From Actinomycetes bacterium (GTDB lineage: Bacteria; Actinomycetota; Actinomycetes; JAJZTN01): DNA of 33,567 nt. A program made the translations under genes and the position numbers. Under the pieces are notes generated by a model that saw only the letters and a program-made list of their open reading frames with translations, did no database searches and was not told the origin of the DNA. The stretch spans positions 1-33,567 of the forward strand of contig JAJZTN010000008.1 of assembly GCA_021848885.1 (NCBI GenBank). Direction: 5' to 3'. This document shows positions 12,465-22,560 of the stretch, piece after piece. Positions within the stretch are counted from its first letter, which is position 1, and the number at the start of each line of letters is the position of its first letter.

Positions 12465-12581
12465 GGCCGCAACTGTACGGCGCCCGCCCCGCCCTGCCCC
12501 GGCTCGGTGCGGCCCGGTGTGGCCCGTTGCGGACCGGTGCCGCCCAAGCACGGACGGTTGCTCGCAGGCAGGCCGCTGTCG

Positions 12582-12674
12582 CGGAGGCGGACGGGAATCG
12601 AACCCGCCAGCGACAGGTCCTGCCGCTCATCGGTTTTGAAGACCGTGGGGGGCACCAGCCCGCCGAACGCCTCC
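12582..12674 (-). tRNA. selC: tRNA-Sec (anticodon UCA)
   Basis: Minus strand GGAGGCGTTCGGCGGGCTGGTGCCCCCCACGGTCTTCAAAACCG...GGTTCGATTCCCGTCCGCCTCCG: long acceptor, long variable arm, TCA anticodon at 12637-12639, adjacent to selA and selD. Confidence 0.95.
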
Positions 12675-20097: not shown

Positions 20098-20181
20098 GGT
20101 CGCTGGGCTGGACACTCGATGGTGCGGGGCGGTCGCTGGGCTGGACACTCGATGGTGCGGGGCGGTCGCTGGGCTGGACAC
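20098..20181. repeat. 33-bp tandem repeat GGTCGCTGGGCTGGACACTCGATGGTGCGGGGC, about 2.5 copies
   Basis: 20098-20130 and 20131-20163 identical; partial third copy 20164-20181. Confidence 0.95.
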
Positions 20182-20319: not shown

Positions 20320-20404
20320 GTCCGGGTGGCGGAATAGGCAGACGCGCTAGCTTGAGGTGCTAGTCCCCGAATAGGGGGTGGGGGTTCAAGTCCCCCCTCG
20401 GACA
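20320..20404 (+). tRNA. tRNA-Leu (anticodon GAG)
   Basis: GTCCGGGTGGCGGAATAGGCAGACGCGCTAGCTTGAGGTGCTAGTCCCCGAATAGGGGGTGGGGGTTCAAGTCCCCCCTCGGACA; anticodon stem GCTAGC/GCTAG with loop TTGAGGT; long variable arm. Confidence 0.96.
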
Positions 20405-20604
20405 CTCCGTCTTGTACATGCACCCACCGGGGTCGCTTCCGCGGCGACCACCTGTCGGTCGGGGTGGTAGGTCAGTTTCACCCCGAGTTGGGCGTAGACC
20501 CGGGTGCGGTCGGCGGGGCCGGCTTGTTGGAGTGCGGCCAGCAGCCCGCCGACCTGTTCGACCAGCGTTCGGACCTGTTCGCTGCTCAGACCCTGATCCT
20601 TCAG
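20386..20604 (-). pseudogene. C-terminal remnant of a serine site-specific recombinase (integrase)
   Basis: LKDQGLSSEQVRTLVEQVGGLLAALQQAGPADRTRVYAQLGVKLTYHPDRQVVAAEATPVGACTRRSVRGGT resembles the C-terminus of large serine recombinases; no catalytic domain present; last codons overlap the tRNA-Leu 3' end. Confidence 0.7.
20395..20407 (+). repeat. Putative att core, left copy (CCCTCGGACACTC)
   Basis: 13-bp direct repeat identical to 27733-27745; covers the tRNA-Leu 3' end. Confidence 0.5.
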
Positions 20605-20911
20605 CCGGGGTGAGTGCGGGGGTCGTGTCGTGACGCGGAAGTGCCCTTGCTGCAAGGGAGAATCGCGATTGTCGAAGTCGCGATCAACCGAGCAGAAGGG
20701 CACCCGCGCTCGCCTCACTTGGACTTTCGGGATTCCTTCGCCGGAGACGACGACGCGCCTGCGTCGCTGCGCTTCTTGCGCTACGTACCGTCCTGGTTGC
20801 GGGACCGCGGCTGAACGCCGCCACCCGAGCTGGGTACGTACGGGCCCTGGTGCGGGCCCGCCCTGCGATCTGCCGCGGCAGACCTCCTTCGTCCCGGCGG
20901 GACGCCGGTCG

Positions 20912-20938
20912 TTAGCACTCACCGATTGCGAGTGCTAA
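20912..20938. promoter_or_regulatory. CIRCE element (HrcA operator), perfect 9-9-9 inverted repeat
   Basis: TTAGCACTC-accgattgc-GAGTGCTAA matches the CIRCE consensus exactly. Confidence 0.93.
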
Positions 20939-21164
20939 CTCCGATGGTGGGGGTGACGTCCGACACCTCCGGGCTCCGACACGCCGATCGATGAGATGTT
21001 CCCGCCGGCGCAGCGGTGGGGCCGTGGCCTTCAGGGTTCGCTCGAGAGCGGTCGGCTGCTCCGCCCAGACCGGGACGTGGGCGAGAGCTTGCGGCCTTCC
21101 CATCAAGAAGCGCCCTTGACCTATTCCCCCAGCATGCGCACGCTTGCGTTACAGGAGGGATGAG

Positions 21165-21437
21165 ATGGCCGCAACAGGCGAGACGATCAACATGCGCACG
21201 GATCGCAACCGCAAGCGTCGGCTGCAGCTTGCTGCGGACCTGTCCCACGAATCGCTGACTGCGTTCGTGCTGTCGGCAGCGGACGAGAAGGCCGAACGGA
21301 TCATCGCGGAGTCTCGGAACACGCCCCTGCCCGCGGCGTTCTTTGATGAGTTCTTCGACGCCCTCGCGCCGGAGCCCCCTCCGGCCCTGACCGCGGCCGC
21401 TACGCGGCACCGGCGCCTGGTTCGCCGTGCCGACTGA
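21165..21437 (+). CDS. DUF1778 domain antitoxin (TacA-like)
   Basis: GETINMRTDRNRKRRLQLAADLSHESLTAFVLSAADEKAERII...LPAAFFDEFFDAL; RBS AGGAGGG just upstream; overlaps the GNAT gene. Confidence 0.88.
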   Translation: MAATGETINMRTDRNRKRRLQLAADLSHESLTAFVLSAADEKAERIIAESRNTPLPAAFFDEFFDALAPEPPPALTAAATRHRRLVRRAD

Positions 21438-21948
21438 CCCGGCCTACACGTCGCACGTCTACCAACCCGGCCGGCACGACTGCCGAACCTTCGCCTGCGG
21501 CGAGCCGGCGCTCGACGCCTGGCTGCGGGACAACGCCGCCGACGCGGGCCGCGCACGGGTCACGCAGACCTTCGTCTGGGTCGACGGGGCCGGGCACGAC
21601 ACCGTTGTGGCGTACTACGCGCTGAGCGCGCACGCGATCCCCCGGACCGAGGCACCCAGCCGGATCGGCCGTGGTGTGCCGGACCCGGTGCCGGCCGCAC
21701 TGATCGGCAAACTCGCCCTGGACCAGCGGCTGCACGGTCAGGGGCTTGGCGAGGTCGTGCTCATCGATGCCCTGCAGCGCATCATCGACGCCGGAAACCA
21801 GGGGCCGACCGTGCGGGCGATCGTCGTCGACGCCGCAACCGACGCCCGTCGCCGGCTCTACGCCAAGCTGGGCTTCGTCGAGGCGCCGAACCGTCCCGAC
21901 CGCATGCTCATCCGGACCGAGACCGTGGTGAAGGCACTCAACCGGTAG
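21427..21948 (+). CDS. GNAT family N-acetyltransferase toxin (TacT-like)
   Basis: FACGEPALDAWLRDNAADAGRARVTQTFVWVD...VVAYYALSAHAI...LIGKLALDQRLHGQGLGEVVLIDAL...RRRLYAKLGFVEAPNRPDRMLIR; overlaps the DUF1778 gene by 11 nt. Confidence 0.9.
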   Translation: MPTDPAYTSHVYQPGRHDCRTFACGEPALDAWLRDNAADAGRARVTQTFVWVDGAGHDTVVAYYALSAHAIPRTEAPSRIGRGVPDPVPAALIGKLALDQRLHGQGLGEVVLIDALQRIIDAGNQGPTVRAIVVDAATDARRRLYAKLGFVEAPNRPDRMLIRTETVVKALNR

Positions 21949-22017: not shown

Positions 22018-22560
22018 TCATGGAGAAAGGCCGGTGTGGGCGAGGAAGGCGAAGCACAGGTCGTAGCTGGAGCCGATGCGGTTCAGTCCGGACTCGGCGG
22101 CGGCGTGAGCTTCGTCGATGGTGTCCGGGCACAGGTTGGCCAGTTCAACCGTCTTGATGGTGCCCCAGACCATTTCGATGGGGTTGATGTCGTGGGCGTA
22201 GCCGGGGAGCCGTTCGACGACCAGCCAGTCGCACTGGGTGGCGATCCATGCGGTCATGGCCTTGGACTTGTGTGAGGGCAGGTTGTCCCAGATCAGGGTG
22301 ATCTTGTCGACGCCGACCTCGTCGTGCAGATCGGTGAGAAACTCGGTCAGCGAGTCGGTGTCGTAGGGGCCCGGCTTGATCCGGAACATCAGCGAGGCCG
22401 CGCTGGCCTCGGGTCGGTAGGCCAGCGCCAACGTCACGCTCCCCGGCAGCCCTGACCACGACCCGGCGACAGCGGCGTCAGCGACCTCAGCGGCGTCAGT
22501 GCCGTGAACAGTAGGCACGGTCTTCCACGAGCGGTCCCCTTCCTTGCGGGTTTGCTTGGC
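22018..22560 (-). pseudogene. IS630 family transposase, C-terminal fragment
   Basis: DKITLIWDNLPSHKSKAMTAWI...WLVVERLPGYAHDINPIEMVWGTIKTVELANLC (DDE domain); the N-terminal HTH part is not found upstream. Confidence 0.85.

Follow-up and report, generated by a model that had tools for sequence, protein, structure and literature searches.

The closest described systems to the locus analysed here are the HrcA/CIRCE operators of groESL, groEL, hsp20 and hrcA. A small protein gene is also under this control in Mycobacterium tuberculosis, where Rv0991c (ruc) encodes an HrcA-repressed small chaperone, a zinc-ribbon protein (PMC7448276). In the current analysis we have studied a perfect CIRCE in a stretch of 33,567 nucleotides, referred to as the window, from a draft genome of 233 contigs that is 97.7% complete, in which base errors are possible, and whose order has no other member in the genome set compared. 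Like the chaperone and hrcA operators, the site is a perfect palindrome in a genome encoding HrcA, is followed by a Shine-Dalgarno sequence and has its centre 49 bp from a gene start position, within the range of 16-168 bp observed over 67 CIRCE genes of the class. Unlike them, it precedes a gene that is neither a chaperone gene nor hrcA and that is broken. This relic is like ruc in that it represents a gene for a small protein and follows an HrcA site immediately, with a short leader, but it is without cysteines and belongs to a family different from that of the zinc-ribbon protein Ruc. The type of operator is known, and its target is new and broken. The site is probably the operator of a minus-strand small gene of a mobile element that was controlled by HrcA and is now pseudogenised, situated on a decayed mobile island. 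The features are collected in the Table.

Table. Features of the CIRCE locus in the window, CIRCE-like sites elsewhere in the genome and example loci of the small-protein family
Feature	Position or contig	Strand	Remarks
tRNA-Leu(GAG)	20320..20405	+	ARAGORN and Rfam; edge of decayed island
IS1380-family 5' end remnant	20584..20709	+	includes first transposase codons
Small basic protein gene relic	20715..20876	-	53 codons and TGA (20717-20715); GCG at start position, one internal TAG, open elsewhere
Shine-Dalgarno run AAGGAGGTC	20881..20889	-	AAGGAGG at 20889-20883, then 6 nt to start position
Perfect CIRCE (HrcA operator)	20912..20938	-	0 mismatches; none in 100 shuffles; 2e-6 expected per genome
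DUF402 gene relic (SDTPIDEMFPPAQRWG)	20961..21020	+	resembles intact DUF402 protein in G373; weak, one short stretch
TacA1-type (DUF1778) antitoxin	21165..21437	+	Pfam PF08681, E=2.5e-14
GNAT toxin partner	21427..21948	+	weak GNAT Pfam matches
Two CIRCE-like sites	C38		before groES
Two CIRCE-like sites	C98		before groEL
CIRCE-like site	C142		before hsp20 gene
CIRCE-like site	C87		before hrcA
CIRCE-like site	C68		before FmdB-like zinc-ribbon (ruc-like) gene
Example loci of the small-protein family	L204:2001-2129, L202:1504-1632, L203:3001-3132, L220:923-1069, L223:467-625, L225:1962-2111, L216:1995-2141

The operator reads exactly TTAGCACTC-N9-GAGTGCTAA, the full consensus that the first-pass annotation of this DNA had reported, with the spacer ACCGATTGC (full site TTAGCACTC-ACCGATTGC-GAGTGCTAA). 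It is the sole match in the window at up to 3 mismatches, no match was obtained in 100 shuffles, and a perfect site is expected about 2e-6 times in 2.68 Mb at the base composition of the window. The CIRCE is real and a chance origin is excluded. CIRCE is palindromic, and the assignment to the minus strand rests on what comes after it. No strong sigma-70 promoter was seen in a consensus scan around the site.

The genome encodes one HrcA (contig C87; PF01628, E=1.1e-55). Counted genome-wide against the groE and hrcA loci, as had been proposed earlier, the further CIRCE-like sites number seven, with 2-3 mismatches each and all of them before a gene. An HrcA together with such sites before hrcA, groES, groEL, hsp20 and the ruc-like gene indicates that the organism possesses HrcA control. 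The site in the window is the only perfect one of the genome and the only one with no obvious gene. The gene behind the C68 site resembles ruc (Rv0991c) of M. tuberculosis, which is repressed by HrcA (PMC7448276). CIRCE before FmdB-like genes is found in this genome and in nine others (L006, L071, L076, L090-L096), a pairing that matches ruc and is spread over several actinobacterial families.

A perfect CIRCE is present in 68 of the 395 genomes of the class. The DNA around 69 perfect sites besides that of the window was examined, one more site, in G109, being left out. The 67 sites that give the distance range above lie directly before groEL, groES, hsp20, hrcA or ruc/fmdB, and the remaining two have a glycosyltransferase gene of the same kind downstream; a perfect CIRCE with no gene behind it is therefore exceptional in the class. 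The two exceptions (L077:1501 and L084:1496, from the families of G089 and G290) stand directly before a family-4-type glycosyltransferase gene, which is a possible further target of HrcA. A scan of 84,980 genomes for CIRCE with the spacer of the window gave eight matches. Seven of these precede groE or hsp20 genes; for the eighth, at the end of its locus, no neighbour could be read. The shared spacer is therefore uninformative.

The minus strand behind the operator carries the Shine-Dalgarno-like run that had been noted earlier (20889-20881), followed by what remains of a gene for a small basic protein. The start position reads GCG (20876-20874) and a single in-frame TAG (20783-20781) interrupts the frame, which is thus not intact. 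Its translation, with X for the stop, is [GCG]ADRRAGPHQGPYVPSSGGGVQPRSRNQDGTXRKKRSDAGASSSPAKESRKSK. The relic scores 42 bits, exactly in frame, with a profile of intact relatives from which the window was excluded, the best of 100 shuffled windows reaching 4.3 bits with the same profile. Within this frame GC content is highest at codon position 3 (0.81), and the motif RxRNxxGx[WVI]RKKRSDAG is matched at all positions except the stop. The earlier remark that no suitable start codon exists here is literally true, but it overlooked the recognisable broken small frame. The description of the CIRCE as an orphan is likewise inaccurate, since this frame is still readable right behind the operator. 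The relic translation has no match in Pfam. With the relic peptide as query, no clear relatives were found in the other 389 genomes of the class, and the genome itself has only this copy. A sole clear member among 390 class genomes, in one copy, fits a horizontal arrival.

Search of the relic by tblastn against 72,556 plasmids (7.3 Gb) has revealed unannotated open reading frames with E-values down to 1e-5, as exemplified by that of Klebsiella plasmids (MADRRPLNKDVVVPKPGGGTQPRDRNNDGTVRKKRSDAGKPRK). These frames begin exactly at the position matching the GCG of the window. Close copies occur in 109 plasmid records and also in some plasmids and chromosomes of E. coli. Viral contigs and plasmids of Klebsiella, Enterobacter, Vibrio, Staphylococcus, Psychrobacter and Arthrobacter carry intact relatives, most of them unannotated. 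The distant intact members include those of viral contigs, Arthrobacter pA34P1 (WP_181716062.1), which is the intact actinobacterial relative, Staphylococcus plasmids (WP_201638521.1), a Psychrobacter plasmid and Lactococcus plasmids. In the alignment, the residue at the stop of the window is W in the distant members and V or I in the enterobacterial ones.

The relic shares with the plasmid proteins the motif RxRNxxGxWRKKRSDAG and a length of about 43-53 residues, and with the enterobacterial copies an identity of 64-67% over 39 residues. The plasmid genes differ from it in being intact and in having no CIRCE nearby; no CIRCE-like site was seen near any of the about 20 intact relatives examined. 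To our knowledge the enterobacterial hosts have no HrcA, and the absence of CIRCE beside their copies is therefore uninformative. That the Staphylococcus, Lactococcus and Arthrobacter copies also have none beside them counts mildly against a general link to HrcA.

The intact proteins match no family in Pfam, NCBIfam or PHROGs, and the open-access papers searched for the motif gave no occurrence of it. The operator has thus brought to light a mostly plasmid-borne microprotein family with no model in these databases. The family (about 37-53 residues, motif in the [WVI] form) spans Pseudomonadota, Bacillota, Actinomycetota and viral contigs, and its members are often found near toxin-antitoxin or replication genes.

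In the minus-strand direction the IS1380-family remnant lies beyond the relic. It is 83-89% identical to two copies each in G019 and G029, in which the transposase is intact and belongs to the IS1380 family (NF033539, E=2e-69). On the opposite side of the CIRCE follow the DUF402-like scrap and then the TacA1/GNAT pair, which begins 227 bp past the site, in agreement with the distance of about 230 bp given by the first-pass annotation. In the class sample, 33 other genomes have relatives of the GNAT partner. The island also contains a recombinase scrap. DNA search of 20600-21160 gave no match against plasmids and phages; in the class, IS1380, an hsp20 leader and the DUF402 gene were matched, and the rest resembled short GC-rich coincidences.

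The tRNA-Leu stands beside an M20-type peptidase gene, an arrangement kept in several families, and among its best relatives a CIRCE adjoins the tRNA only in the window. No repeat of the tRNA-Leu of at least 14 bases is present elsewhere in the window, so a classic tRNA-integrated island is unproven. The mobile origin of the block is suggested by its gene types and by where the small gene occurs, and not by attachment sites.

These features point to the following history. HrcA would have bound the palindrome, which probably overlaps the promoter, and thereby silenced the small gene; under heat or misfolding stress HrcA activity would have been lost and a basic protein of about 53 residues made. 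The family occurs mainly on plasmids and phage-like contigs, and for this reason the gene probably came with a mobile element, which would have left behind the island beside the tRNA-Leu with its recombinase scrap, IS1380 end, DUF402 scrap and toxin-antitoxin pair. The gene would then have lost its start codon, gained the internal stop and presumably ceased to function, while the operator stayed perfect. An apparent orphan operator is thereby turned into a readable history, that of an HrcA site before a non-chaperone small gene.

The scar of a lost chaperonin operon had been suggested earlier for this site. The idea of a scar is correct as to its type, but a different gene was lost, that of the small mobile-element protein whose relic is readable. 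A groESL or other chaperone scar was rejected, since the organism's own GroES, GroEL, Hsp20, HrcA and FmdB match nothing near the site. With these proteins as queries (tblastn for GroES and GroEL), no coding trace of groES, groEL, hsp20, hrcA or fmdB was found within 1.5 kb, and the earlier observation that groES, groEL and dnaK are missing from the vicinity holds for the window.

The CIRCE could alternatively remain from a chaperone gene that has since been deleted (hsp20, groES/EL or ruc), the relic having been placed downstream by a later insertion or deletion. We regard such a chance junction as somewhat unlikely. The region is visibly rearranged, as seen from the IS1380 end and the recombinase and DUF402 scraps, and the relatives of the small gene are without CIRCE. 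The CIRCE with 13 bp of flank is also identical at 35 of 40 positions to an hsp20 leader of G226, although 25 of these 35 positions are accounted for by the arms of the CIRCE together with 7 bases of its spacer. Against this stand the lack of any chaperone coding trace around the site and the spacing of operator, Shine-Dalgarno run and relic, which is that of a working gene. The pairing of CIRCE and relic has been seen once and the relatives are without CIRCE, so that recruitment of the gene by HrcA and a chance junction are not separable with certainty.

It is a tentative and rather unlikely proposition that a widespread, unannotated microprotein family of mobile elements has been recruited by the HrcA heat-shock circuit of the host. 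Were this so, microproteins borne on plasmids and phages would act in protein-folding stress, and mobile elements would tap the chaperone regulon. Further HrcA-controlled copies, if they exist, would give the first clue to the role of the family.

A present-day activity of the site is compatible with the history of a pseudogenised HrcA-controlled gene. The CIRCE may still work as the start of a heat-induced transcript, non-coding or very short, or as a bare HrcA site that soaks up the repressor. All 18 arm positions are intact though the gene behind them is broken, but there is no Rfam match and no terminator or promoter call at the site, and a recent loss of the gene accounts equally well for the intact operator; we consider this activity improbable.

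That the CIRCE governs the plus-strand toxin-antitoxin pair and places it under heat-shock repression, as had also been suggested, is very improbable: the palindrome is symmetric and the pair is the nearest intact gene set downstream, but the operator centre lies 240 bp from the antitoxin start, farther than for any gene of the class sample (16-168 bp), the unrelated DUF402 scrap intervenes, and a CIRCE-like site was present at none of the 29 relatives of the pair checked (reach about 1.4 kb); the antitoxin is probably not under CIRCE control.

A few other features of the window have been identified. A fragment of a DDE_3 (IS630-type) transposase (22018-22518, minus strand; Pfam PF13358) lies beside the toxin-antitoxin pair as a further mobile scrap. 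A short tandem repeat of a GGTGCGGGGCGGTCGCTGGGCTGGACACTCGAT-like unit, in about 2.5 copies, is found at 20100-20180, with the M20-type peptidase gene on one side and the tRNA-Leu on the other. The window also encodes a selenocysteine tRNA (12581-12674, minus strand) flanked by apparent selA, selB and selD genes, which together would form a selenocysteine insertion cluster.
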